Assembly (NCBI GenBank): GCA_905221605.1
Contig: CAJNDS010002486.1
Span: 294,954 to 358,953, forward strand
DNA length: 64,000 bases
From: Symbiodinium natans
Taxonomy: Eukaryota > Sar > Dinophyceae > Suessiales > Symbiodiniaceae
Direction: 5' to 3'
The notes under the pieces were generated by a model. That model searched no databases, was not told the DNA's origin, and saw only the letters and a list, made by a program, of their open reading frames with translations. The position numbers were made by a program, and so were the translations under genes. This document shows, one piece after another, positions 1,939-51,600 of this stretch (the stretch's first letter is position 1; the number at the start of each line of letters is the position of its first letter).

Positions 1939-3926
1939 ATGGCTTCTGAAGATTGGGAGGCTGCGGTCAGCAAGCTGGCGGCTCCCTCACATTCCTCGCG
2001 TTCCACACGGGACTTCAACGAGGTTATCGGGCTGTGTAGCCGGGCGAGAGCCTGGCAGGCGGCAATAGGCCTCTTCGCAGCCATGCCGCTGGCGGACGTG
2101 GCGCCGGACGTCGTCAGCTTCAACGCCGCCCTCAGCGCGTGCGGGCGCGCCGGCAAGTGGCAGTTGGCGCTCCGGCTGTTTCAAGACTTGGCAGGCAGGA
2201 CGAGTCTGGCGCCGAATGTGGTCAGCTTCGGCGCCGCCATCAGCGCCTGCGAGCGAGGCAGCCAGTGGCAGGCAGCGCTTGGCTTGCTCTTCGATATGCA
2301 AGACTTCAGTGTGCAAGCGAACGAAATCAGCACCAACGCAGCCATCACTGCATGTGACAGGGCCGGATGTTGGCAGCTGGCGCTGCTGTTGTTGTACGGC
2401 ATGGAGAGGTTCAGGGCCGCCGCAAATGTGGTCAGCTTCGGTGCTGCCATCTCTGCATGCGCCAGGGGTGGACGCTGGCAACTGGCGCTGCACCTCTTGT
2501 CTTCCATGCCCGAGGCAGGTGTAACGAGGAACGAGATCAGCTTCAACGCTGCAATCAGCGCCTGTGAGAAAGCCGGGAACTGGCAGACGGCACTGCAGCT
2601 GCTCTTCGACATGCCCGCGGAAGGGCTGGCGTCGAACGTGATCAGCTTCAACGCGGCGATCAGCGCTTGCCAGAAAGGTGGCCAGTGGCAGGCGGCGCTC
2701 CACCTTCTCGTGGCCATGCAGGGCGCCCGGGTGAGGGCGGACGATATCAGCTGCAATGCTGCCATCGGCGCCTGTGCAGAGGCCGGCCTCTGGCAGATGG
2801 CGCTCTGCTTGCTTGCCGAGCTTTGCTTCAACAGCATGAGGGCTGATCAGTTCAGCTACGGTGCTTCGATCAGCGCCTGTGAGAGGGCGGGGGCGTGGCA
2901 AACGGCTCTGCAGCACATGATGGTCTGCTCGCAGGAGCATGTGCGGGTGAACGAAATCATCTTCAACGCAGCCAGCAGTGCCTCTGAGAAGGGTGGCCGA
3001 TGGCAGGCAGCACAACATCTTCTGTGGGACATGACAGGCACAGGCCTTCGTCAGGATGTGATCAGCTTTAATGCGACGCTGAGTGCTTTTCAAAGGGCGC
3101 CGTGGTGGGGCACGGCCCTGCAACTGCTCCAGGTCATGCCGGAGTTTGGGCTGAGTGCCAACGTGGTCAGCTTCAATGCCGCTGTCAGCTGCTGTGAGAA
3201 GGGTGGACAATGGCGGTTTGCCCTGAAGCTGGCACCGCTACCTTGGGCACCTTTGGCACCTCGCAGCTCCGGCACGGGCTTCAACGCTGCCATCAGCGCC
3301 TGCGAGAAGAGCGGCGAGTGGCAGTTGGCACTTCCACTCTTGTGCAACATGCGCCGCGCGGCCGTCCAGGAAGACCGGATAAGCTTTAGTGCCAGCATCA
3401 GCGCCTGTGAGAAGCGCGGAAGGTGGCAAAGAGCGGTCCACTTGTTTCGGACGATGCAGGGCTTGAACGTGTCTGCAGATGAGGTTGCCTTCGGTGCCAT
3501 CATCAGTGCCTGCGAGAAGGGAGGGCAGTGGCAGCTGGCCTTTCAACCGCTCTCCCAGCTTCGTGCCATGGGACGAGAGCCCGACGAGATCAGCTTTTGT
3601 GCAGCCATCAGCGCCTGTGAGAAAGCCGGACAGTGGCAAGCAGCCTCGCAACTCGTCACGGGCATGTTAGAGGTCCAGGCTCGGGAGGGGGGGGAAACAT
3701 TGGGAAACTTAACCAGGATCCCAGTTTTTCAGGATAGATCCCCCCACCATTTCCCCAAGATGTTCGTAACCTTAGTCAGAGATGTGGGACCACCCTGGGA
3801 TGTCATTCGCGTGTTGCGGTGTGGACTCCTCAAGCTAGCTTCTAGCACTGGACATTGCAGGTGGATGTCGTGGAGGTGAGCTTCAACGCCGCCATCGGTG
3901 CATGCCACAAAGCCATGCAGGCCTGA
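1939..3926 (+). CDS. PPR (pentatricopeptide repeat) protein, two visible exons
   Basis: This is a helical-repeat protein predicted to bind RNA, most likely in plastid or mitochondrion. I chose ATG 1939 (MASEDWE..); the frame stays open further 5'. Exon 1 (1939-3678) encodes about 16 repeats of about 35 residues with the recurring core 'SFNAAISACEK.G.WQ.AL.LL..M'. A GC-AG intron (3679-3860) leads to exon 2 (3861-3926), which resumes exactly in repeat register (VEVSFNAAIGACHKA) and ends at TGA 3924. Joined this way, spacing from the helix-end Met to the next repeat is the usual eight residues. If the intron were not removed, the frame would run into unrelated sequence to 3879. One repeat (about 3190-3290) has a shortened, altered second helix. 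There is no clear targeting peptide, so a 5' exon may be missing. RNA target unknown. Confidence 0.85.
3679..3860 (+). other. Intron of the first PPR gene, GC-AG type
   Basis: The boundaries follow from repeat register: exon ends ..GTCCAG and resumes GTGGATGTC. The donor is GC and the acceptor is GCAG. CAGG occurs at both junctions. Length is 182 nt. Confidence 0.7.
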
Positions 3927-19079: not shown

Positions 19080-19260
19080 CGTGTCCAACAGTTGAAGGCA
19101 CAAATCCGGCGTGACGCGCCGAGTGCATCAGACCGCCGACGCTTGGACATGGTCGTGTATGGCAACACGACAAACGGCGGCGCGCTGCGTTGCGACGCAA
19201 CTTTGGTATCCCCCTTAACCCAGTTTGGGCACCCGCAGCCATGCGCAGTGCGAACGATGC
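19080..19260 (+). pseudogene. Fragment of retroelement C-terminal endonuclease domain
   Basis: The frame reads SDRRRLDMVVYGNTT..ALRCDATLVSPLT..GHPQPCA, matching the segment after the Cys/His cluster in the larger element on the - strand (DRRRLDMLVYG..LCCDATLVSPLT). The match fades on both sides and stops follow. It is a decayed stand-alone piece. Confidence 0.65.
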
Positions 19261-20430: not shown

Positions 20431-22440
20431 TTGATGCAGACGCCCACTCAAAAAGTCCAACTTGGTCCAGCGGCTGTGTCTGCGGCTCTGCGCGGCGCCA
20501 AGAGGGGCGGCGCTGCGGGCCTCTCCGGCATGCGGGCGGAGCATCTCAGGCTCCTGCTCCTGGACGTCAGCGCGCTCGAACTTTTGGCTCACGCGGCCAC
20601 CCAACTCGCCAATGCCCAGATCCCTGCTGCCATCGTCCCCGGCCTGGCACTGGCGCGTCTCACCGCGCTTCAAAAGCCCGGCGGCGGGGTGCGCGGGATC
20701 GCAACAGGCGACGTCTTCCGTCGGCTCGTCTCGCACGCGCTGGCTCAGGGCTGGGCCGACACATTCAACCAAGCTACACGCCCATACCAGTTCGCGCTCA
20801 AAGCTCGGGCCGGTACAGACGTACAGACGCCCTGGCGGCTCATGTGCGTGCGTCGCTCGATATGCGGCCGGATGCAGTAGTCGTGTCGCTGGACGGGCGA
20901 AATGCTTACGACAGCATGTCTTGGGCGGCTTTTTTGTCCGCGCTGAACTCCTGCGCGCCGGAGCTGGTACCTTTTGTACGCATGTGGTATGGCGACCCGT
21001 CCACGTACCTGTGGTGGGATGCGGCAGGTAATTGCCGAGAGGTTTCGCAGGGTGAGGGCTGCGAGCAGGGAGACCCGTTGGCCCCCACCCTGTACGCACG
21101 CGGACAGCATGGTGCTTTGAGCAGCGCGGCCTCGGCCCTCGCACTCGCCTTCCTCGACGACCTCTACATCGTCACCAATCGGGATCGTGCCAGTGGTCCA
21201 CCGCGTTGAGGACGAGTGCGGCATCGCGTCCAATGCAGGCAAAACCCGTGTCTACAGCCTGGCAGGGGGCCTGCCGCCGCCCGGAGTGGCCGAGCTGGGC
21301 ACGGACGTGTGGCGCGGGGACCGGCCCCTGGCGGAGTGCGGTCTGCTTGTGTTGGGCACGCCGGTCGGCCACTCGGAGTACGTGCGCGCCAGGGCAACGA
21401 CCCGAGCGCACGAAGAGCGCCACCTGCTAGAGCAGTTGCCCCGGCTCCCAGACCTCCAATGCGCTTGGCTGCTGTTGGCCATGTGCGCTTCCCCGCGCGC
21501 TACGCCCAGTTGCACGACGATGCAGTCTGGGAGACTTGGTCGCACTTCTGGGAGGCCTTCCTCCAGACGAAGCGGACGGAGCGCGCTCTCTGGCGGGGCT
21601 CCCCGCTGCGCTCGGAGGCCTGGGTTTGCAGTCGGCTGCGCGCATGGCACCGGCGGCCTTTTGGGCTGCCTGGGCTGATGCCTTGCCGGTACTCCGAGCG
21701 CGGGTGCCCGAGTTCGCCGCTTCCTGCGTGGATTACTTGGGCGGGGTGGAACCGCGCCCTGCTTACAGAGCGCGGCTGGTGCCCGCAGCCTTCTCCGGGC
21801 CGAAGGTTGGCATACATGCCCCGAATGGCGAGCTCTTGCCGAGGAAGCCCGCCCTCGCCCCCTCCCTTGCGCACGCCGGCCTGGGCGACTGGCCGCATGG
21901 TTGGCAAAGCCATGCGTCGCGTACCCGGAACCTTCACTTCCGCGACAGCGTGCTATTGCCATCCTTGCCGCCAGCCGCCTCTGCGCTTTTGCGTTCGCAG
22001 GCTGGGCCGCATGCGGGAGCCTGGCTAACAGCAGTGCCCGCTGAGCCCGCCATGACCTTGGAACCCCAAGCCATGCAGGTGGCACTGCGCCGACGCCTCC
22101 GCCTCGCACTCCCGCTCCACTCCGATCGCTGTGGGCCCTCTCCGGGGTGCGGCGCGCAAGTAGATGCTGTCGGGGACCACGCCTTGGCATGCCCCCGCAG
22201 CGGCCTCCTCGCCCGCCGTGCCAAGATAGTGGAACGGGCGTGGGTGCGGGCGGCTCGGGAAGCAGTTGGGGCAGACGGGCAAGTAGTCCCGCAGCAATGG
22301 CTGGCCCACACCACGGCCCCCCGGGTGGACCCTTCCGACAGGCGCCGCTTGGACCTGGTAATCTATGGCGCCACGCCTCTGGGCGGAGCGCTGTGCTGCG
22401 ACGCCACGCTGGTCTCCCCGCTGACGACCACAGCTTTCGA
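20431..22440 (+). pseudogene. Decayed RT retroelement copy, 5'-truncated
   Basis: It encodes, in at least three successive frames, RT motifs of the same family as the element at 23.8-28.9 kb. These are the fingers region (GAAGLSGMRAEHLRLL, about 20510), QKPGGGVRGIATGDVFRRLV, then after a frameshift near 20830 motif A (VVSLDGRNAYDSMS), motif B (GCEQGDPLAP) and motif C (AFLDDLYIV). After another frameshift near 21190 come the thumb region, then HGWQSHASRTRN, the Cys/His cluster (GCGAQVDAVGDHALACP) and RRRLDLVIYG..CCDATLVSPLT. Similarity ends abruptly at about 22430. The N-terminal half and the 3' end are missing. The high GC matches the intact copy and differs from the surroundings. Confidence 0.85.
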
Positions 22441-23755: not shown

Positions 23756-23763
23756 TTGACTTT
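23756..23763. repeat. Target-site duplication, 3' side of retroelement
   Basis: TTGACTTT; matches 28852-28859. Its last three T overlap the T-run that is the element's A-tail. Confidence 0.75.
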
Positions 23764-23814
23764 TTTTTCTCGGACTTTTATGCCTGCTGATCCGTTCGGT
23801 CGGCTAAGCTGTTC

Positions 23815-26800
23815 CTAAACTACCCGGGCTGTAGTTATGCCCGCAGAGGCAGCCGGCTTGGGTCGGGCGGCCCAGGCTCCAGGAGGCGGTGGGGCAGGCT
23901 CGTCGGCCGCGGTGGAAGCGGACGGCCACGTACGACCCAGGGCCGTGGTGCCCACGGCCTGTTGAACGGCGACCGAGACGATGCTCCACCAACGTCTTGC
24001 CCAGCCGGATGCGGCCGCGCGGCGCACTGTTGGCGGCGCGCGGCATGCGCGAATGCGGACCATGTCGCGCATGAATCGCAGGGCCCCGCCATTCCAGCGA
24101 CCCCCGACCTCCGAGCCGAGCACGACGAGCCGCTGGGGCCCGCCGCCCGTGAGCTCCGGGTAGGCCGCCTGTTTGCGTCGTTCCGCAACGCGGAGCGCTG
24201 CCCCATCCGTGTCGGCGGCGCATGGTTGCGGTTGCCCCGTGCGCGTCAAGGGCGACACGAGGGTAGCGTCGCAGCACAGCGCGATGCCCATGGGCGTGGC
24301 CCCGTAAACCAGCATGTCCAGCCGCCTGCGGTCATCTGCCGCGACTCCTGGTGCCGAGGTGTGTCCGAACCATTGTTAGGGCACTACTTGTCCCTCGGGC
24401 CCGATTGCTTCCCGGGCGATCCGGACCCACGCTCTTTCGACCACTTTGGCGCGACGCGCCAGCAGCCCTGAGCGCGGGCATGCCAGCGCGTGGTCACCGA
24501 GCGCGTCCATGTGGCCCCCGCATCCGGGCGAGGGGCCGCACTGGCCAGCGGCAAGCTGTAACGGCAGCCGCAACCTGCGGCGCAGGGCTATCTGCATAGT
24601 CTGCGGTGGCAAGGTGGTCATTGCGTCACCGGGAATCGCCGACAGCCAAGCGCCGGCATGGGGACCAGATTGGGACCGTAGCACTGCTCGACGAGCAGGC
24701 GGCAATGACGGCAGCAGCACACGGTCGCGAAAGTACAAGTTCCGAGTGCGCGATGCATGTTGCTGCCATCCATGCGGCCAATCGCCCAGCTGTGGTTCCG
24801 CGGCTGGTTCCGGTCGCTGGTTTCCTGCTACATCCTGCCATGTGGGGCACGCCTCCCAGCCTTCCGTGAGGAGAAGCGTGCGGGCATCCGCCGCATGGCG
24901 GAGGCACGCCATTTCGGCCCCTCCCCGCTGGAGTGTTTCGACGCAGTGCGCCGCAAAAACCGGGAGCCTGGCCCCGACTGGCAAAGCGTCCGCCCAGGCT
25001 GCCCAGTAAGCCGCCGGCGCTGAGCGCGTCGCCGACTGCAGACCTAAGCCACCTAACGCTGCCGGCAGGAAAGCGGTCGCCCGCGCGAGGTGCGCATCCT
25101 CCGGTGGGGCCCCTGCCTCGCCGCCCAAGCAGTCCAGTAGCGTGTGCCAAATGGCATCGTCGTGGCCTGCGGCATACGAGGCAATTGCGGTTGGGGGCAC
25201 CGTGCGCAGCGCGTGGTTCGCGCGCGGAGACGCGCAGAGCGCGAGCAGCAACCATGAACATTGCAGGTCAGGGAGCTGGGGCAGTTGCTGCACCGCCCAG
25301 GCATGCACGAAATCCGTGTGGCCTACAGGGGAGCCCAGCACAACCATGCCTCGCTCGTGCGAGGGCCGGTCCCCCCTCCACACGTCGGGCCCAAGTTCAG
25401 CCAGGCCCGGCGGAGCAGGCCCCTCCGAGCCTCCGAGCCCTCGCGTTTTGCCAAGATTGGAGGCGATGCCACAGTGCTCCTCCACTGCCCCGGTCACCGT
25501 GTCGAGTGCCGGACGTGCTCTTGAGGCCACCGTGATGACGTAGAGGTCATCAAGGAATGCCAGCAGCTTGTCGGCTGGAAGGAGGTCGCCGGCTGCCCGT
25601 GCGAGAGCACCGTGTTGCCCCAAGGCAAATAACGCGGGGGCCAGCGGGTCGCCCTGCTCGCAGCCCTCGGCCTGGTGGACATCACGCCTGCGGCCGGCCG
25701 CGTCCCACCAGCTATAGGTGGAGGGGCGACCATAGAACATGCGCACGAAAGGCAGCAGTTCTGGCGCCACTTCCTGCAACTTGACCAGGAAAGCCGCTCG
25801 CGAGATGCTATCGTAGGCACTGCGGCCATCGAGCGAAACGACGACTACGTCCTCGCGCGAGTCCAGCGCCGCTCGGACAGTCGCAACGATGGCGTCAGTG
25901 CCCGCCCGCGACTGGAGTGCGTACTGGTACGGTCGCGTGGCGTGGTCGAGAGCGGTTCCCCACTGCTTTGCGAGAGCTCGCGCGACGAGGCGGCGGAATG
26001 CGTCGCCTGTGGCTATGCCGCGGACCCCGCCGTCAGGCTTTTGGAGAGCCGTCAATCGGGCCATGGCAACGGCGGCGGCCACTTCGGCGGGCACACGGGC
26101 CCGGGCCAATTGCGTGGCGGCGTGGGCCAGGAGCTCCTGCGCGGGGATATCCTGCAACAGCAGCTTAAGGTGCTCTGCCCGCATGCCGGACAGGCCTGGT
26201 GCGCCCCCGCGGCGCGCATCTCGCAGCGCGGACGCCACAGCTTTTGGCGTCAGGGTCACGGGCTCGGCTGGCTCGTGTGCGAGGGTGTCCGGCGGGATGG
26301 GCTGGCGTGGGACGGCAGGCCTGCGCGCTGGGTCCGTGAGGGCCGCATACGTTTGTTCTGTTCCCGGGGCCAGAGCTGGAGCTGTGAGGACTTGCCAGGC
26401 GCGCGAGACCTCGCCCATTCGTACTTTGGCGCACGCCCGCTCGCGGCGCCGGGCGTCGGCCTCCTCCGCGTTGGGCTCCGGAGCCGCGTCCGCTGCTCGG
26501 GGCAGCTGGCGCGCCTCGTGCAGCAAGCGGATCCACTCGCCCTGCTGGAATGCCGCTGCGCGACTGAGGAGCTCTTCGCGGCCGCCCGGGCCGCGCTTGA
26601 TGGCTGGCCGGGCCAGGAGCATGCGTGGCGCCAGGAGAAAAAGTTTCCACGCTCGGAGGGTCGCCCCATCTTCATCCCCAGTGGATCGCAAATGGTTCAA
26701 AGCGAGGCCAAAGCCCCGCGGACCGACGAGCGCATAAACGGGGGCACGTCCTGCAGCGTCGGGACTGGGTGGCGCAACTCCTCTTGCAAGTCGACGGCGT

Positions 26801-28305
26801 CCAGCTGCTCCCACGGGGACTCCCGCGGCAGGCCGTGCGGCGCTGGTGGGGGCGCCGGCTCCGCCGTCTACGCTCCGAGCACTCGTTTCGGGCTGGGGCA
26901 ACTCTGCGACCCCTTCCGGAGAACGCCGGCGCTGGTGTTGTCTGGCCCGCCTCCGTCCCCTGCTTCTCCGCTGTGGTCCTGGCAGTGGCGGACACTCGGG
27001 CGGCCGCTCTGTTTCCCACACCGCCCGCATGTCCGCGGCCAGGGCCTGGGTGCCCGCCGCGACCACGACCCCTCCGTACCCTTCCAACAGCGTCGCCTGC
27101 GCGGCTGCCGGCACGTACCCGTCAGCATCCGCGCAAAGGACCAGTGCAGCGGCCAGAGGGAGGGGCGCGTCCGGCAAGGAAAGGAGGGCCGAGGCGAGCG
27201 ACGCGTCGCGGCGGCTGGACACCTGCGCACCTGCTTCCGCCGCGTCAAGGTCGGCTATGGCGTGGAGCAACCGCGCCAACGCGCGCGGATGGGCCGGCTG
27301 AGTGTGCTGGAGTGTCGCCACCAGCTCAGTCCAGCGAGGGCCCGCCTGCTCATGCCTCCTCCAGGCCTCCGAGGCATCTGCGGTCAGGAAACCTGCGGCC
27401 TCGTGGAGCAGCGGTACGTACAGCCAGGACTGCCGCTCCCCTGGTGGCGCTCGGCGAGGCGGTCCCGCGGCCTGCCACGCGGGGCTAGAAGGCATGCCGA
27501 CAGTTGCCTGAACGTCATCGTGCTGCATTGGTGGGGCCGCCGGCAAAAAGTCAGGCGTAACGTCGCCAGCAGGGGTCGGGGCTGCGGCCCCATCAACGTC
27601 GGCCTCCGGGGCGGCGCGCGGGGAAGCCGCCGGAAACGCACGTGGTGATGCGAACGGCGTCGCGTCCGACAATGCGTCCTCACCCCCCGACGCTGCACCA
27701 GCGGGCACGAGGCACATCTGGGCCAGCGCATGCATCGCACGTTGCCTACGCGTCTCCACGTCAACGAGGTCTGGAGGGCCGGGATTATCGGCCTCGCCAA
27801 TCCGCCGGCCTGTGAAAGGGGTCGGCGTCCACGGGCGGGGCTCACTCCAGGCTCGAGCATGCGTGGGGTCGGAACCGCCCGTGTGCCGGCCTGAGTTGGG
27901 GACGAGCTCTACGGCCCAAGCATCGGAAGCGCATGCGGGCGACCATTGCCGTGCTTTGTGTGGCGCGCCCCGCCCCCCCGTCCGGCATGTACTGCTGTCA
28001 CGCCGACCGACACTGCCCGGCTGGTCGGACGTGGGCTGCAGAAGATGCCGCGGGGAGCGGGAGCGCGGCGGCCTGGCGTCGCGCACGAGCCCCCGGAGGT
28101 CCCGATGGCCAACGAGTAGACAAGCGCGGACCGTGCATTTTGCGCGCCGCCCTGCCCCCCCCCCATCCTCAACATGGTGGCCTGCTTGGCGGTCACCCCG
28201 AAGGACTTGGCCTGGAAGCTGATGGCGCGGAGGGGCGACGAACATCCCGCGAGGCAGAGGGGAGTGGCAGGCGGCGTGCGGAAGCCACAGGAGGCCGCGG
28301 GCCAT
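23815..28305 (-). CDS. Retroelement ORF2: reverse transcriptase with C-terminal nuclease-like domain, one internal stop
   Basis: The frame is 1496 codons, interrupted only by TAA at 24376-24378 (codon 1310), where the 20.4-22.4 kb copy has Gln. Start 28305 is the first ATG and may not be the true start. Visible in order: R-IGEADNPGPP (about 167-178); a long Ala/Pro/Arg-rich region; RT from about 685 (GAPGLSGMRAEHLK), QKPDGGVRGIATGDAFRRLV, motif A SLDGRSAYDS (about 825), motif B GCEQGDPLAPALFALG (about 885), motif C AFLDDLY (about 917), motif D ASNLGKTR; a Cys/His cluster CGPSPGCGG..DHALAC (about 1255-1275); then after the stop RRRLDMLVYG..CCDATLVSPLT and an ERRKQAAYPEL segment. The last part fits a restriction-like endonuclease (D..D..K) as in R2-type elements. 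No N-terminal AP endonuclease was seen. The copy is nearly intact, hence young, but may be disabled by the stop. Confidence 0.88.
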
Positions 28306-28753
28306 GTGGGCCGGGCAGAGTTGGGAGCGATGGAGTATGGGGCATGGTCGCTTGGTGGAGGACGCGGCAGAGCAGTTCCGTAGGCGACTGCCCTGCCGCA
28401 GCGGCCAAAGCTTCTAGCTCCTGCTCGCCCCCAGCTGCCAGGCAGTGGAGCAGCTCGGACGCCGCTACCGACCACGCCGGCGGCGGCACCTGTCGCATCT
28501 CCGACCGCCCCCACAGCAACGCCACCCCCAAGGCTCCAAGCACCAACCCGATACACAGCCAGCCCCAGCAGTGGGAGCATGGTCCCCAACCTGGCGCATA
28601 ATAGCGGGGCGCGACCGCCACGCAAGTAAGCACTGCGTGCGTCGCTGCCTCGCGGCACCCATCCGGGAACTGCATCGCGGCTGGAACCGCTTGGCGGGCT
28701 TGGTGCAGGGCCCATTGCGCGGCGGTCGTCAACACAGCCGGCCACCAGACCAT
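28193..28753 (-). CDS. Retroelement ORF1, small membrane-anchored protein candidate
   Basis: From the first ATG after the leader (28753) the frame encodes 186 residues. The N-terminal part is moderately hydrophobic (MVWWPAVLTTAAQWAL). A Cys-rich bend (GPCSHCWGW) leads into a strong transmembrane-like segment (LCIGLVLGALGVALLWG, about residues 65-82). Then comes a charged helical region (ASELLHCLAAGGEQELEALA) and a Pro/Arg-rich tail. It overlaps the ORF2 frame by about 110 nt, with ORF2 in +1 relative to it. I do not recognise a characterised family. An ORF of 328 codons in a third frame (28895-27909) covers the same DNA but begins outside the element, so I prefer this one. Confidence 0.5.
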   Translation of the reverse strand: MVWWPAVLTTAAQWALHQARQAVPAAMQFPDGCREAATHAVLTCVAVAPRYYAPGWGPCSHCWGWLCIGLVLGALGVALLWGRSEMRQVPPPAWSVAASELLHCLAAGGEQELEALAAAAGQSPTELLCRVLHQATMPHTPSLPTLPGPHGPRPPVASARRLPLPSASRDVRRPSAPSASRPSPSG

Positions 28754-28800
28754 GACACGCCGAAAGAAAAAAACGAAACGGGAGGCGGGAAACGTTTGAG

Positions 28801-28852
28801 CTTGAGCAACGCAACTTGAGCCAAAACTCCCTTGAGCCAAAATGGCTACGGT
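28801..28852 (-). other. Spliced leader plus stacked relic leaders at retroelement 5' end
   Basis: 28852-28831 read on the - strand gives the 22-nt dinoflagellate spliced leader in full (ACCGTAGCCATTTTGG.. ending ..GCTCAAG). It is followed at once by GGAGTTTTGGCTCAAG (28830-28815) and by TTGCGTTGCTCAAG (28814-28801), each ending with the leader's last 7-12 bases. Trans-splicing adds this leader to nuclear mRNAs in dinoflagellates; relic leaders in tandem are the known signature of mRNAs that were reverse-transcribed, inserted and trans-spliced again. Here they imply at least two earlier rounds. Confidence 0.92.
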
Positions 28853-42633: not shown

Positions 42634-45600
42634 ATGGCGTCCGTGAGCCGATGGCAGGAAGATCTCCATCTCGTTCTGCAGCGGAGCTTGCGCCTCATTC
42701 CCGGGTCCCTGGGGGATGGGTCTCTCTGCCTCCGACCTCTTGGCAAGGCAAAGCTCTGGCAGGTGGCTGAATCTTTGCTTTCACGGCTTCGGACTGTGCT
42801 GCGCTTGGGCATGGTGGCTTACAACACCGTCGCCAGTGCGACCTCGAAGGCCCAAATGTCAACGCGCAACACCGTAGAGACTCTTAAGGTCCCCCCTACC
42901 CCACCCCCCCCTAAACCCTGCCTAAATACCCTGTAGGCCGTGTGGCACCGGGCCCTGCACCACTTGGAGGCTAGCCAGTGCGGCCTCCGACCCGATTGCG
43001 TGGCGGGCAACGTGGCCATGAACGCGCTGGGTGGGCGGTGGCAGGCCGCCGCCCGTGCCTTCGATAACCTCCGGAGCTGGAACCTGCTGGACCAGGTGTC
43101 TTTCAACACCCTCATCCGTGCCTGCGAGGGTGACGCAAGCTCAGCAAGCTCGTGGAACTGGGCCGTGCAGCTTCTGGAGCAGTGCTGGGCGGTCCGAACG
43201 CGTGACGTGGTGTCTTACAGCTCAGTGCTCCATGCCTGCAGGAATCGGAACCGCCGGAACGACTGGCAGAGGAGCTTCCTGTTGCTGAGAGACTTGAAGA
43301 CCGATGAGGTGCAGCCCGACATTGTGCTTTGGTCAGCTGCGGTGAACTGGATCGCAAGCTCTGGGTCCTGGTCGACGGCCTTGCTGCTGCTCTCAAGGCG
43401 CTAGCCAAATTTCATGCTCAGCCGCGACCAAAACCCGAAGGAACTCCCCGAAGCGGTTGACAATTTTTTGTGGTTGGTTCTGACTCGCTGAAGGTTGCCG
43501 GTTCATGAGGCCCAGCCCAACATTCAGACATTTGGCGCCGCCTTGGGCGCCTTTCACGTGGGTGGTGGATGGAGTCGGGCTCTCTACCTCATGGAGGACA
43601 GAAGCACAAGGGGGTTAAGCTTGCGTCAGGGGAAAGACGGAGGGACCCCAACGAGGCCCTTGTGTGCTGCAGTGCTGCCCAAGCTCTGAGCCTGAAAGGA
43701 TGTGCAGACTGCAAGCCTCCGCGCAAACATCTTGAGCTACAACGCCGCCATCACAGCATGCATCTGGGAGCAAATCATGCGATGTTGGTTGGTGACATGC
43801 TTTGGTGACTTTAGTGGGTGCTTGACGTTGGTTAGATGGGGTCGTGGCAGTGCAGCCCACTACTGGCAACAGTAGCTTCGATTGCCTACCATGTGAACGA
43901 AATGTCGCAGGGCATCCCGATACCGAGGTGAGAAGGATGGCGCGTGGCAGGTGTCGTTGGCGCTGTATGCTATTCTGGCTGAGAGCGGCCTTGAGCCAGA
44001 CTTAATCACTTGCAACGCCGCAGCCCGGCCGATAATCACATACCCAGCTCATCTGGTTTTGAGGGGGGGGGGGCTCATGTCTCCCTGTCTCGCTCGCTTC
44101 CTCGGCATGCTTTCACGTACATTTCTGAGGTTCTCAGTGCCTTAGCCCGGGGAAGCTGGCAGCTGGCACTGGCTTTCTTCTGGGAGCTCAAAGAAGAACG
44201 ACAGACTTTGGACGTGGTGAGCCTTGGGGCTGCCCTCTCGGCCTTCGACCGCGTGTGCCTGTGGGAGCAGGGCCTTGCTTTGCTTGCTGAGCTTCCGGCC
44301 ATGCGGCTCCGGGCCAACGCCGTGATCTGCAACACGGCTATGAGCGCCTGTGCGAAAGCGGGTCGTTGGCAGGTAGCCGCCTGGCTTATGGACTCGGGTC
44401 GGGATGTGATCTCCTTCAATTGTGCCATTGCCGCAAGCGGAAGGGCGGAGGAGTGGCGCCCGGCCTTGAGCCTGTTCTGCAAGCTCCAAACCTGCCGAGA
44501 GGCCACTCTCACCAGCTACAACTCGGCCATCGTGTCCTGTGCTGGGAGTGGGGGTGGGAGCTGGCGCTGGGCCCTGACCCTCCTCGGCTCCGTGCCTTCG
44601 GCGCTGGGTCCGGACACCGTCTCCTTCGACGCCGCGCTCCGGGCGTGTGAGGCCGCGGGTCGATGGCGAGAGGCTCTTCAGCTGCTCAGCGACTTCCGAG
44701 CTGCCGGCCTGCTACCCGAGGCTCCTTTGTCAGAAGTTTGCAAAGGGCACGATAACACAGGCCATGACCCTGCCTTCCTCTCCCCCCAAGAAGATCACCG
44801 AAGCACATGCCTAAAAGCTCCATTTTTTGGTTAGGAAGAGCCTAACCTCAAACATCCCTGCGACGTGCTGAGGTGATCACTTACAGCGCAGCGATCGGCG
44901 CCTGCCAGGCTGCCCGGCAGCGTCTCGGCCGCAGGAGGGGACACACCTCTTACTCTTACCTGTCATCAGTATGTTGGGGTCTCACCTACAGGGTGGGGGG
45001 GGTCATCTCCTGTATCAGGGGAACCCTCACATCCGCAACAGTCTTGCCAGTACTTCTGGAATCCCCAATCAGCACCGGACACGAGGCTCAAGAACTTCGG
45101 GGCCCCAAGCGGAATTGGCGTCCTGTTCCCTCTCCGAAGTGAGCCCCGCAGTGTGGCAACAAGAGCCTAGACTGTTTGGCACCAACGGAACACAAACACC
45201 CAAAGAGCCCAAGCATCTTCAACGAGGTGGCAGGCGGCCGGCATCCTGCTCGAAGCACTCCGATTGCAGGAGCTCCGGCCGAGCCGCTTGGCCCTAGTAG
45301 GGGGGTTGGGGGTGGGGGGGGGGGGGGGATGTTGAGCTTCTCAGTTTCAGAGCGAAGCTACCATAGTCAGGAAACCATCCCAAAATCACCATACATCTAC
45401 TGGTTATGGTAGCTGAATGTGTTCCTCAACAGAAACCCAGGGTTGCGGATTGTCCCTGAAGTCATGGCATCTTGGCAGATTTGAATATGTGTGCTGTAGA
45501 TGTACAGGCAAGTCGCGCGTCATGTCGTTGCGCCAAGCATGTATGCGTGGCTATGTAGAAGCATGCATGGTGTGCCGCGCCTTGACAACACATGTGCCAT

Positions 45601-48600
45601 TGCCGTGCGCGCTGCAGGCATCGTGACGGCCGCTACAGCCGTCCTGGCTGCCACATGTGGCCAACAGGGATTGGAGGAGGGGTGGGTACCCACAAAACTA
45701 TTGAAATGGGCCAGATGCAGGATTCTGCTGCTTGACCGCGTGCACCTGAGTTTCCCCAAAAAGCTGCTCACACACTTCGGGAGTTGAGCCATTGGTTGCC
45801 TGCGTGCGAGGTGAGGCGTTGGCTCCATCATCTGGAGCGTCGCGGATTATCCGGTCTGGCAGGTATCCGAAGCCACTAGGGGCCGGAACCTGCGTGTTGG
45901 CATAGCTGCCGGGGGAGTCAGCCCTTGAGCCCTAAATTACTACATCCCCCCAAAACCTAATTCTCTTAAATCTACGATGGCTGGAGCTTTCAATATTAGA
46001 GATTGGGGTTCCGGGGTACCGGGTACGACACCCTTCGTGCCGAGTCGTGCATGAGAATTGCTGCGCTGGTGCGATCGGTATCGATCAGCAGCGGCGTTGC
46101 GAATGACCTTCGGATCAGATTGACAAGGCTGCACACGTCCCATTTCAACCGAGCACGGACACAAGCCCATGGATAAGCAATAAGATATCATACCGCATCC
46201 TTTTCGTATCCTCTTCAACAGGTTGTTTTTCCAGTGTTCTTATTGCAGGACAAGGGCTCAAAGACGCTCTGCGCCGAGTCGGTGACCGGTTGGGGCGCCT
46301 GTGCACCGCCTGCACTTCTGTTTAGGGCCCTACCGTTACCTGTGCAGTGCAGACGTGCTTGTGTGCGGGTGTCAGGGGCAACGTCTGCAAAACAGTCTGA
46401 GACTCCTTTAAGTCGGAGACCCAAAATGTGGAGATCATTCTGTATCCACGTTATGAGAACTTCACTCATTTCACCTCAAGGTGTGATGGCAGGCTTCGAA
46501 GTGCATGGGGGCCATTGACTGCAAAGCTTAGCGCGGCCCTCCCCAGACTGTTCTCCCTTAACGCTTGGCCCGAGCAGCTGCAGCGGCTCGCAGGCACATG
46601 TTTGGAAGTCTCGATTCCCATGCCCGGCGAGGAGACGGGAGTGCACTGGAGATGAGCGACGTCAATCTGCTCGCTCGAAGCCCGTGGCGCCGGGCGCTGC
46701 ATCTTTTCGAGGATCTTGGCGTATGCGACATCTCCGCCTGTACGGCAGTCACGCGCCTGCACCCGAACCATCCCGAACTAAACCCCGGCCGCTTGTTTTC
46801 CACAAATGGACTTGCATTGCGGTCTCGTCGGTGTCGGGGTGTGTGTGTGTAGGTGTGCATTTTACTAGCTTCCATTTTCTCTTTGCTTAGGATCAACGCA
46901 CTGCCTGGCCAGCTTTCGATCCTCTGAGGTGATCACTGCGTGTGGGACGGGGGAGCAGTGGCAGCGTGCTCTGGGCCTCCTGTGCATGGTGGATGGCCTA
47001 AGCCTGAAGAAGGACCTGATCAGCTACAACGCCGCGCTGCGGGCATGTGCGAAAGGTGCTCAGTGGCAGCACGCCGTGGAGGTCCTGCGGTCCCTGCGAG
47101 CCAGCCGGTTGCAAGGTGACAGCGTGACCTACCGGACTGCCATCGGTGCTTGTCGGTGCCACTGGGGTTACGCGTTGGCCCTGCTCCAAGACGCCCAGGG
47201 GATGAAGCTCGACATGGGCATGAGCTCTTATGGGGTGGTCATGTCCGCATGTCAAAGTGCAAGTTGCTGGAAGGAAGCCCTCCAGGTTTTTGCAGCCGCA
47301 GCTCAGGCGAGCGTTCAGGCCGATGCGCGTAGCTTCACTTCGGCCATCAGCTCCGGTGTCCGAGGGGAGGATTGGCAAGGGGCCGTTGCGAGGTTCTGTG
47401 AGATGCTTCGGAAGGGCGTGGAAACCGACAGCATCGTGCAGAACGCTGGGCTGCTTGCCAAAGGCTTTCTCCTCTGGCAGGCTGCCTTGCAACAGCTTGG
47501 TGAGCTAGAACAGACCTTCCTTCGAGCCGATGCCGCCTCCTACAACACTGTTCTAAGCGCTTGCGAAGGGCACTGGCAGGAATGCCTTGTGATGGTAGTT
47601 GATATGGAGCAGAAGGCGATAAAGAAGACCGTTGTGTCGATGGGTGCGCTGTTGTCGGGCAAAAACGAGCTAAGCGAAAGCTGGGGCAGGCCATTGGAGT
47701 TGCTGGTGTCCTGCTACCGGAGGTCTGCAGAGACCAACGTGATCTCCCACACAAACCTCTTGGCAGGGATGGCTGCTAGCTGGTTTCATGCTGCGGCTTA
47801 CTTCAGTAGCTTATCGACGCGAGGTGTGGCCAAGACCCTTCCCATGGAGACAGCCGCGTTAAATGGGCTTCGTGCAGCAGGTCGTTGGCGGCAAGTTCTA
47901 CACGTCGCAGCTGCAGCCAGGGAAAGAGACCAGGCCATGAGCCATATGGTGGTCGACTCACATATCTCGGCTTCTCAGTGGTGGCATGGAGTCCAAGCCT
48001 GCACCTCACTAGCGAGGCGCAGCCTTGAGCCAAGCCTTCTCACGGTAAACCTGGCTGTATCTGCTGGTGCTGCACTCCGGCAGTGGCACCGCGGCTTGGG
48101 GTTTCTGTCCTCGCGGTCGTTGCAGGATGTGCGGACGGTCAATGGAGCCCTGCACTCGGCGAGCGAGAACGGGCAATGGAGTCTGGCCTTGACGCTGCTC
48201 CAGAACCTTGCCTTGTCAGCATTGGAGGCCAGCGTTGTCTCGTACAGCACGGCCATGACGGCGTGTGGGGCGAAAGGCAGCTGGCCACATGTGCTACTAC
48301 TTCTCAATCGGCTGGAAGGTCAGGGCTTGGAAGCCACGACGATCGTCTGCAACTCGGCCATCGTGTCCTGCGCTGGGAGTGGGAGTGGGAGCTGGCGCTT
48401 TGCCCTGTCCCTCTTCGGGTACGTGCCTTCGGCGTCCGGGCCGGACACGGTCTCCTTCGACGGGGCGCTCCAGGCGTGCGAGGCCGCGGGTCGATGGCGA
48501 GCGGCTCTTCAGCTGCTCAGTGACTTGCAAGCTTGCGGCCTGCAACCCGAGGTACCTTGGTGCTTCAGAAGTGAGAAAGTGTGCCATAACGCAGGCTCTG

Positions 48601-51600
48601 ACCCTGCCTTCCTCCCCCCTTGAAGCACGTGTTTGGGAGCACCCTGTTTTGAAGCAAAAGGCCCTTCTTCGTATCAAAGCGTTCCCTAGGAGCTCGGCCC
48701 GCTGAGGCGATCGCCTACAGCGCGGCGATCGGCGCAAGCCAGGACGCCAGGCAGCGCCTCGGCCGCGGGAGGTGTGCGTGGCCTTGAACTTGATCATTAT
48801 TTGCAAAGTGTTATAACTCATATCTTTCTTCTTCATACATACTGTCAGGAGGTTCCTAGCATAAGTATGTCGGGGTCTTACCATGGGTGGAGGCATCCCC
48901 TATTTATTTGGGGAAGAACTCACATTCGCACGGTCTGGCCAGTACTTATGGCAAGCCCGTGTTCACCGAGGTGGCAGGCGGCCGGCATTTTGCTGGAAGC
49001 ACTCCAATTGCAGGAGCTCCAGCCCAGTCGCCTGGCTATGCAGGGGTGTTGAGCTTCCCAGTTCCAGAATTACCATAGTCAGGTAGGCAGAAGAATTACT
49101 ATACCTGTACTGCTTACGGTAACTTAGATTTGCGTTCCTTAAGAGCAACCCAGGGTTGCGGCTTGTCCCTGAAGTCATGGCATCTTGGTTGGGGCTGGTG
49201 TTGGGGCCTCTACCTACTGGGAAGGCCACTCATGTGTTGGAAGCCCTAACCGTAGTTACATACATGTATTGTATGTAAAATTTGTCCATATGCACACTTC
49301 TGTAGCAAACCGCGGTTGAGGTTGCAATTGCTTCCTTGCATAGCACTACGTGTACTGTGAAGGAAAGTCGCGCGGCATGTCGAGCCAAGAATGTGCTGGC
49401 GTAATGTGTGGCTAAATGGAAGTATGGTGTGCCGCGCCTTGAGAACACATCTGTCACTGCTGTGCGCGCCGCAGGCCTCGTGACGGCCGCTACAGCCGTC
49501 CTGGCCGCCACATGTGGCCAACAGGGGTTGGAGGAGTGGTGGGTACCCACAAAACTTTTGAAAAGGGCCAGATGCAGGATTCTGATGATTGACCGCGTGC
49601 ACCTGAATTACCCTCAAAAGCTGCTCACACTCTTCGGGAGTTGAGCCATTGGTTGCCTGCGTGCGAGGTGAGGCGTTGGCTCCGTCATCTGGAGCGTCGC
49701 GGATTATCCGGTCTGGCAGGTATCCGAAGCCACTAGGGGCCGGAAACTGCGTGTTCGGAAAATTACTACATCCCCCCAAAACCAAACTCTCTTAAATCTA
49801 CTATAGCTGGAGCTTTTAATGCTAGAGATTGGAGTTCAGTCTTTTGGGTTAGGACACCCTTGGTGCCGTGCATGAGAATTGCCGCGTTGGTGCGATCGGT
49901 ATCGATCAGCAACGGCCTTCAGATTGACAAGGCTGCACAAGTCCCACTTCAACCGAGCACGGGCAGAAGTACATGATAAATAATGAGATGTCATACCGTG
50001 TTGTCTCGGATCCTTTTCAACATGTTGATTTACAAGTGTTCTTATTGCTGGACAGTGGGCTTAAGGACGCTCTGCACCGAGTCGGTGACCGGTTGGGGGC
50101 GCCTGTGCACCGCCTGCACTTCTGTTTAGGGCCCTACCGTTACCTGTGCAGTGCAGACGTGCTTGTGTGCGGGTGTCAGGGGCAATGTCTGCAAAACAGT
50201 CTGAGACTCCTTCAAGTCGGAGACCAAAAATGTGGAGATCATTCTGTATCCACGTTATGAGAACTTCACTCATTTCACCTCACGGTGTGATGGCAGGCTT
50301 CGAAGTGCATGGGGGCCATTGACTGCAAAGCTTAGCGCGGCCCTCCCCAGACTGTTCTCCCTCAACGCTTGGCCCGAGCAGCTGCAGCGGCTCGCAGGCA
50401 CATGTTTGGAAGTCTCGATTCCCATGCCCGGCGAGGAGACGGGAGTGCACTGGAGATGAGCGACGTCAATCTGCTCGCTCGAAGCCCGTGGCGCCGGGCG
50501 CTGCATCTTTTCGAGGATCTTGGCGTATGCGACATCTCCGCCTGTACGGCAGTCACGCGCCTGCACCCGAACCATCCCGAACTAAACCCCGGCCGCTTGT
50601 TTTCCACAAATGGACTTGCATTGCGGTCTCGTCGGTGTCGGGGTGTGTGTGTGTGTAGGTGTGCATTTTACTAGCTTCCATTTTCTCTTTGCTTAGGATC
50701 AACGCACTGCCTGGCCAGCTTTCGATCCTCTGAGGTGATCACTGCGTGTGGGACGGGGGAGCAGTGGCAGCGTGCTCTGGGCCTCCTGTGCATGGTGGAT
50801 GGCCTAAGCCTGAAGAAGGACCTGATCAGCTACAACGCCGCGCTGCGGGCATGTGCGAAAGGTGCTCAGTGGCAGCACGCCGTGGAGGTCCTGCGGTCCC
50901 TGCGAGCCAGCCGGTTGCAAGGTGACAGCGTGACCTACCGGACTGCCATCGGTGCTTGTCGGTGCCACTGGGGTTACGCGTTGGCCCTGCTCCAAGACGC
51001 CCAGGGGATGAAGCTCGACATGGGCATGAGCTCTTATGGGGTGGTCATGTCCGCATGTCAAAGTGCAAGTTGCTGGAAGGAAGCCCTCCAGGTTTTTGCA
51101 GCCGCAGCTCAGGCGAGCGTTCAGGCCGATGCGCGTAGCTTCACTTCGGCCATCAGCTCCGGTGTCCGAGGGGAGGATTGGCAAGGGGCCGTTGCGAGGT
51201 TCTGTGAGATGCTTCGGAAGGGCGTGGAAACCGACAGCATCGTGCAGAACGCTGGGCTGCTTGCCAAAGGCTTTCTCCTCTGGCAGGCTGCCTTGCAACA
51301 GATTGGTGAGCTAGAACAGACCTTCCTTCGAGCCGATGCCGCCTCCTACAACACTGTTCTAAGCGCTTGCGAAGGGCACTGGCAGGAATGCCTTGTGATG
51401 GTAGTTGATATGGAGCAGAAGGCGATAAAGAAGACCGTTGTGTCGATGGGTGCGCTGTTGTCGGGCAAAAACGAGCTAAGCGAAAGCTGGGGCAGGCCAT
51501 TGGAGTTGCTGGTGTCCTGCTACCGGAGGTCTGCAGAGACCAACGTGATCTCCCACACAAACCTCTTGGCAGGGATGGCTGCTAGCTGGTTTCATGCTGC

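Follow-up and report, generated by a model that had tools for sequence, protein, structure and literature searches.

How does a retroelement come to carry the spliced leader of its host at its very start? This question is raised by a 64,000-nt stretch of the Symbiodinium natans genome (here called the window; C2174:294954-358953 of the 759 Mb genome), which contains on its minus strand a non-LTR retroelement of ~5.1 kb with an 8-nt target-site duplication (TSD) and an A-tail. The 5' end of this element reads ...GGTCTG AAAGTCAA CCGTAGCCATTTTGGCTCAAG GGAGTTTTGGCTCAAG TTGCGTTGCTCAAG CTCAAACG... A first-pass annotation of the letters alone had described a full 22-nt leader at 28852-28831 (minus strand), two shorter pieces ending in the leader's 3' bases, and a 5' UTR with ORFs directly after them, and had proposed that the element's own RNA is trans-spliced and copied back, each round adding a leader. 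The description held (Table 1), with the refinement that 21 nt of the leader are exact (28851-28831) and that the A at 28852, which precedes them, may be part of the target duplication and not leader nt 1. This was the sole leader match in the window even when up to 3 mismatches were allowed (0.01 expected). The 12-nt leader suffix in the first relic occurred in 0 of 200,000 simulated 32-nt stretches (first-order simulation), and the GCTCAAG of the second was found in the next 16 nt in 0.07% of simulated trials (P ~0.0007). Next comes a CTCAAA that lines up with CTCAAG close to the start of two related copies, C2106 (L018) and C2049 (L019), and can be read, weakly, as a third leader remnant.

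Table 1. Features of the leader-led element, from its 5' to its 3' end (positions are those of the window).
Feature	Position	Strand	Remark
5' TSD copy AAAGTCAA	28852..28859	-	last A perhaps common with leader nt 1
Dinoflagellate spliced leader, complete 22-nt (ACCGTAGCCATTTTGGCTCAAG)	28831..28852	-	sequence match
Relic 1, GGAG+TTTTGGCTCAAG (last 12 leader nt, exact)	28815..28830	-	sequence match
Relic 2, TTGCGTT+GCTCAAG (last 7 leader nt, exact)	28801..28814	-	sequence match
Possible relic 3, CTCAAA	28795..28800	-	aligned with CTCAAG of C2106 and C2049
5' UTR	28754..28794	-	common to C657, C2106 and C2049 from 28789 or 28785 on, 94-97%
Upstream ORF (MVWWPAV...)	28193..28753	-	ATG at 28753; overlaps RT frame
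Long RT ORF, 1345 aa stop to stop	24376..28413	-	RVT_1; in-frame TAA at end
RT frame continued past TAA to TAG 23817-23815	23815..24375	-	translation
Short 3' UTR, 46 nt	23769..23814	-	between TAG and A-tail
A-tail, 8 A, 3 common with TSD	23761..23768	-	adjoins TSD
3' TSD copy AAAGTCAA	23756..23763	-	same 8-mer right after A-run

The body of the element combines a reverse transcriptase (RT) domain with an A-tail, a TSD and no long terminal repeats, as expected of a LINE. The long frame matches RVT_1 (E 1.3e-10, 41.8 bits against a cut-off of 29.6; nt 26043-25504), and comparison of the RT protein with the PDB at E <=0.1 returned only two R2 retrotransposon proteins, both weakly (E 0.0043 and 0.0055). 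Zinc-knuckle (CCHC-like) and restriction-like-endonuclease-like motifs were recognised by eye in the stretch past the TAA, and a Pfam search with the upstream ORF gave no match. The 3' end, 5.1 kb from the leader, reads ...GTCCGAG AAAAAAAA GTCAA; GTCAA follows just one of the 103 runs of at least five A in the window (both strands), namely the tail of the element. A genome search with the joined flanks hit nothing but each flank at its own place, the two hits having precisely 8 nt in common, and revealed no empty site elsewhere. Among the copies listed for 19 direct-repeat families of at least 60 nt, none paired the ends of the element. Insertion at the fixed 28S rDNA site of R2 was not seen, the window having no Rfam match at the gathering score. 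Other copies (C657 and C1769) begin further in, a variable 5' truncation of the kind found in LINEs. The single in-frame stop (TAA) of the window copy counts against the proposed cycle of trans-splicing and copying.

The window holds further sequences of interest. A second, decayed RT copy lies inverted at 20506-22426 (+), 66-67% identical to the first in two long blocks and with its frame broken; Pfam gave no match to the C-terminus of copy 2, and an AlphaFold model of the C-terminal 426 aa of copy 2 reached a pLDDT of 32.8. A fragment at 19131-19246 (+) resembles the C-terminal region of the element. Within the RT frame, 27775-27810 (-) encodes GRRIGEADNPGP, which we take to resemble the NPGP end of 2A-like skipping peptides, the residues before it misfitting the consensus. 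Finally, 44499-47135 and 48330-50941 form a ~3.8 kb tandem duplication with blocks 83-100% identical, containing ORFs that look pentatricopeptide-like (PPR) by eye.

We then determined whether leaders precede other RT elements. The exact leader occurs 205 times in the genome (104 forward and 101 reverse matches) and its reversed pattern not once; all 205 places were sorted by their next base (38 + 91 + 76) and checked by eye against the 76 rows obtained by searching the genome with the window RT protein, for which 69 of 2561 first-look candidates were scored. An exact leader on the same strand lay within 5 kb upstream of five of the 76 RT rows (window, C323, C646, C638 and C2265) against an expected 0.05 (P 3e-9), and the excess persisted with the window excluded (4/75, P 3e-7). 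On the opposite strand, an exact leader was seen at one of the 76 rows (C1792; P of at least one = 0.05). Six exact leaders on one strand at C479:102078-129867 (+), with ~3.8 kb spacing and in two groups of three, form a tandem array, perhaps of SL genes or of an amplified retrocopy.

The 5' regions of all 15 other RT rows whose open frame reaches 1200 aa or more were also inspected. A sense leader suffix of at least 14 nt was present in seven (C315, C646, C638, C1876, C2055, C767 and C2047), which represent six distinct loci since C767 and C2047 are 100% identical over 3001 nt; among simulated sequences, 1 of 600 had a suffix of even 12 nt or more. Leaders at the start of further RT elements support the first-pass annotation. 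It had named other long copies without a leader as evidence to the contrary, and this was encountered in part: the remaining eight rows (C513, C2249, C1769, C813, C761, C2254, C402 and C233) lacked a sense leader. Two of these are sisters of leader-led elements, C1769 truncated and C2249 rearranged; the other six count against the proposed cycle. One of the 15 rows (C761) carried an antisense suffix, a decayed relic stack upstream of the RT on the plus strand at ~C761:5074-5130 (L064, C761:4214-7214); the exact antisense leader at C1792:672722 (+) also lies upstream of an RT. Both count against trans-splicing of the element's own RNA, and it is suggested that they are other retrocopies or inverted 5' ends. 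The canonical 15-nt relic was present at C646, C323, C315, C767 and C1876, and absent from the window copy, C638 and C2055. At several leader-led loci TSDs were short or absent (none at C638, at most 2 nt at C323, 2-5 nt at C646), which also counts against the proposed cycle.

A search with the 5' 553 nt of the element gave 12 matches in the genome, the window itself included. In comparing their 5' ends we relied on junction strings, because the alignment flanks were partly forced. The nearest relative, C657 (94-98% identical in three long blocks, with an A8 tail), begins 67 nt in, just past the leader stack and without a leader, which counts against the proposed cycle. After unrelated flanks, C2106 and C2049, which are both rearranged in their interior, open with CTCAAG TGCCCCC...; this CTCAAG may be the 6-nt end of a leader. 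A shorter, rearranged relative at C2 (L021) starts CCGCAGCCATTTTGGCTCAAG TTTTCGCTCAAG ATTTGGCCCAAG TTGCGGGGTTCAAG; its unit TTGCGGGGTTCAAG equals relic 2 of the window at 11 of 14 nt, and further units lie outside it.

Close relatives differed in the number and arrangement of their leaders. In one family, C646 has four leaders, C2346 (74% identical) has one that is truncated, and C1769, a 97% sister of C646, has none and begins 6 nt past the C646 leader junction. At C323 the leader is followed by a canonical relic and TTTCTTGCCGG, and its 96-99% sister C2249 has the leader, TGATCAAAATCGCTGGTAG and TTTCTTGCCGG, with the leader in an inverted 5' piece. The 19 extra nt of C2249 end in AG and may represent 5' flank that was read through and then trans-spliced. 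In its inverted end, leader nt 3-8 adjoin 91 nt of the element's 3' end, the two overlapping by 6 nt, much as twin priming would do; the complex order of its pieces counts against the proposed cycle. At C174 stands an 89% sister of C3 whose leader and relic are the same and whose 5' flank is different. The unequal arrangements among relatives indicate that leaders were gained or lost independently.

Could one captured leader, multiplied by tandem slippage, have given rise to the stacks instead, without repeated cycles? The C646 stack, whose three 15-nt relics are perfect and identical, would suit such an origin, as would L099 (C557:297300-297720, minus strand), where four perfect tandem leaders (SL and three relics) precede sequence unlike C646, indicating that four-leader stacks are not unique to that locus. 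In contrast, relic length, spacing and intervening bases vary in the window, L021 and C2055, and C323 and C2249 differ between the leader and their common UTR. Slippage as the general source of the stacks therefore appears unlikely to us. Repeated addition of leaders, as claimed in the first-pass annotation, receives partial support: the arrangements of relatives differ as it predicts, but the C646 relics could be slippage products and relics are not general.

The exact boundaries of the leaders bear on how they were acquired. Template jumping by LINE reverse transcriptases is known, and an enzyme that left the element RNA during insertion and continued on SL RNA, or on an mRNA bearing the leader, could in principle add a leader; copies that start a few nt from the leader junction, where cDNA often ends, are in keeping with this. 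Against it, the leaders read end at the exact exon end (...CAAG) with different sequence following at different loci, and canonical 15-nt relics have their first base immediately behind the AG of leader nt 6-7. We regard such jumping as quite improbable. The exact exon end together with the absence of common sequence after the leader is instead the basis for taking trans-splicing as the leader source, since the differing post-leader sequences mean that no common SL-RNA intron was carried along.

To see what follows leaders elsewhere, we took the first 16 listed leaders minus L038 (1.1 kb from L037), leaving 15 loci, each read for 2.2-4.2 kb past the leader. Ten ORFs from nine of them were searched for domains; the remaining six loci had only ORFs of at most 160 aa. 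RVT_1 was found at three of the nine (C3, E 1.8e-8; C111, 1.8e-13; C156, 1.3e-24). The window RT matched none of the 15 loci by tblastn at E 0.01, and these three RTs thus belong to other lineages. The C156 RT matches R2 and L1 ORF2p chains and the C111 RT weakly matches R2; AP-endonuclease-like stretches lie below Pfam cut-offs at C111 and C156 and were seen by eye only at C3. A 666-aa open stretch with an OTU-like cysteine protease domain (E 4.5e-10) at L083 (C36:1077471-1079471; leader at C36:1075271) is possibly another type of retroelement. A PUF-repeat gene follows one of 30 sampled leader loci, which shows that tagging extends to host retrocopies; at the other 29, no Pfam match reaching the cut-off was obtained with the longest ORF in the first 1.5 kb. 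Exact CTCAAG within 40 nt after the leader was seen at 4 of the 30 loci and in 2 of 30 control stretches 500 nt further, which indicates that relic stacks are no general feature of genomic leaders.

Upstream of six of these 30 leaders (L026, L040, L041, L042, L047 and L049), telomere-like CCCTAAA repeats occur at a distance of no more than 25 nt, compared, roughly, with 3.4% of 25-nt tiles of the window (both strands), and a preference of leader-led insertions for such repeats is possible. A pattern search of viral contigs for relatives of the element matched seven stretches, none of which was confirmed. An exact-leader scan yielded one viral-contig record and two prokaryote-contig records, in which no RT element was recognised, and an 18-nt form of the leader added one more viral-contig record. 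The AT-rich, virus-like L001 (IMGVR_UViG_3300045993_001077) has exact leaders at 2746-2766 and 2893-2913 (-), and by eye its GC-richer, leader-led stretch at ~1790-2766 resembles the retrocopy of a host mRNA in a large DNA virus.

Empty insertion sites showed what had been inserted. At C646, GCTGGCGAGA passes into CCGTAGCC at the 5' junction and A14 into GACCAGGTGTCC at the 3' junction; the corresponding empty site at C813 reads GCTGGCGAGACCAGGTGTCC, with no leader and with flanks 96.5% and 96.0% identical. For C767, 20 of the 42 matches listed for the joined flanks span the junction (own site excluded), and three paralogues read ATTCTTACAAACA(A/C)ACATGTG, again without a leader. Four rows span the junction of C1876, and the one that was read has no leader. 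The filled C323 site has CCACTTGGA followed by ACCGTAG... at one end and A14 followed by CTTGTAAGC at the other, and its sole spanning row, C93, reads CCACTTGGAACTTGTAAGC and matches the 3' flank over no more than 28 nt. A TSD of ACTTGGA/ACTTGTA considered for C323 was withdrawn, as C93 allows a duplication of at most 2 nt. Genome searches for empty sites of C638, C315 and C2055 returned only their own halves. The leader is complete in C646 and C323 and 5'-truncated in C767 and C1876. Since the empty sites of all four loci, which belong to the RT group of the window and hold A-tailed units, lack it, leader and element were inserted as one unit, and comparison of the filled and empty junctions shows the leader to be the first sequence of that unit at each of them. 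In the window, the TSD likewise lies outside the leader. A leader outside the TSD-bounded unit, which the first-pass annotation had named as contrary evidence, was not encountered at the window or at the four empty-site loci.

These sites also weigh on two further explanations. One holds that the leader belongs to a host retrogene or other resident sequence beside which the RT element inserted. SL-tagged host retrogenes are common in dinoflagellates according to the available text of PMC12014239 and PMC6050394, and the PUF gene described above is an example in its favour; against it stand the leaderless empty sites of C646, C323, C767 and C1876, which match both flanks, the window TSD outside the leader, and the position of the leader at the same end of eight RT loci (window and C323 counted). 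We rejected this explanation at the four loci on the basis of their empty sites and consider it highly improbable overall. That the element targets spliced-leader RNA genes, the leader being target-site DNA, can hardly be credited: the R2-like class, to which the RT is weakly nearest in the PDB, does include SL-gene-specific elements, but insertion in an SL RNA gene was not found, the four empty sites being leaderless, the leaders are stacked and truncated, and the 5' flanks differ among the loci read, the duplicates C767 and C2047 excepted.

Taken together, we consider it very probable that the RNA of the element is trans-spliced like a host mRNA and that target-primed reverse transcription then copies it as far as the cap or nearly so. 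The 22-nt leader would be joined by trans-splicing to an AG acceptor located at the element's 5' end or a little upstream. The capped and tailed RNA would then undergo target-primed reverse transcription, for which the A-tail, short duplications, truncation and inversion argue, and the leader would be turned into DNA whenever the cDNA reaches or nearly reaches the cap. The next leader, added in a subsequent cycle, could be joined at the AG inside the old one (CCGTAG/CCATTTT), leaving a 15-nt relic; alternatively, splicing at an AG in the flank would leave a shortened relic after a few foreign bases, as in the window, where relic 1 (GGAG and 12 nt) may derive from a copy cut short inside the leader and later spliced at a flank AG. 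Repeated cycles would stack the relics, each productive cycle being able to add a leader. C657 and C1769 have lost the leader region, C2106 and C2049 most of it, which suggests that the leader or its vicinity is where cDNA synthesis often stops, and a fresh leader in the next cycle would render such losses harmless. The element, we infer, could benefit by having its 5' end renewed and capped, with small losses there made good.

CRE/SLACS/CZAR and NeSL are LINEs of the RLE type that are tied to spliced leaders because they insert into SL RNA genes; unlike theirs, the empty sites described here have no leader. The element resembles R2-type and other LINEs in its RT domain, short 3' UTR, A-tail, TSD, 5' truncation and the twin-priming-like inversion of C2249, and differs from them in the host spliced leader at its start and, in the window, in its insertion outside 28S rDNA. 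DinoSL-tagged retrogenes arising by mRNA recycling were reported by Slamovits and Keeling (2008), as cited in PMC3229502, of which the available text places the start of the canonical relic right after the AG at leader nt 6-7. The present copies share with such retrogenes a genomic 5' leader, relic stacks and the canonical 15-nt relic CCATTTTGGCTCAAG (PMC12014239 and PMC6050394, available text), the leader or relic standing at the DNA-level 5' end as part of the retroposed unit. Unlike in those retrogenes, a reverse transcriptase is encoded by the very RNA that is recycled, which may therefore drive its own repeated cycling. The type of retroelement behind dinoflagellate retroposition is given as unknown in the accessible portion of PMC6050394, where LTR elements are deemed more likely; in contrast, the A-tails, empty sites and inverted end found here are non-LTR signatures.

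Comparable cases come from other hosts and from viruses. Trypanosomatid L1Tc, with its Pr77, is likewise a LINE in a host with spliced-leader trans-splicing, but according to the available parts of PMC4748587 and PMC8190864 it uses an internal promoter and unspliced RNA, whereas here the leader is present in genomic copies. In Hydra, the host leader is found on ~30% of Iso-Seq reads from transposable elements (PMC12220107); the portion available describes these leaders at the RNA level and no leader built into genomic copies, in contrast to the copies reported here. Endogenous dinoRNAV has a dinoSL within 500 bp of 6 of 26 RdRp copies, and retroelements including LINEs were proposed as the machinery in the text available of PMC10235124. 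Those copies, too, reflect leader-bearing RNA copied into dinoflagellate DNA, but as passenger RNA, unlike the window element with its own reverse transcriptase. A full-text literature search, with subscription papers and preprints mostly outside its scope, found no account of leader-led LINE copies. SL-tagged retrocopies are thus already known, and leader-led LINE copies, as recognised here from genomic sequence, appear to be without a report in the literature covered.

For a LINE copy, lack of the promoter or of the first bases is usually fatal. Adding a host leader to each RNA could solve this 5'-end problem and leave a countable trace in the DNA, so that 5' ends could turn into a record of cycles and a handle on copies that have passed through RNA. 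More tentatively, LINEs of both endonuclease classes might obtain from host trans-splicing a cap, a 5' end and the AG acceptor for the next cycle, which may allow a promoterless life in read-through transcription with repair of the 5' end, the same machinery making SL-tagged retrogenes. Leader-led LINEs bear on which retroelements make the SL-tagged retrogenes of dinoflagellates.
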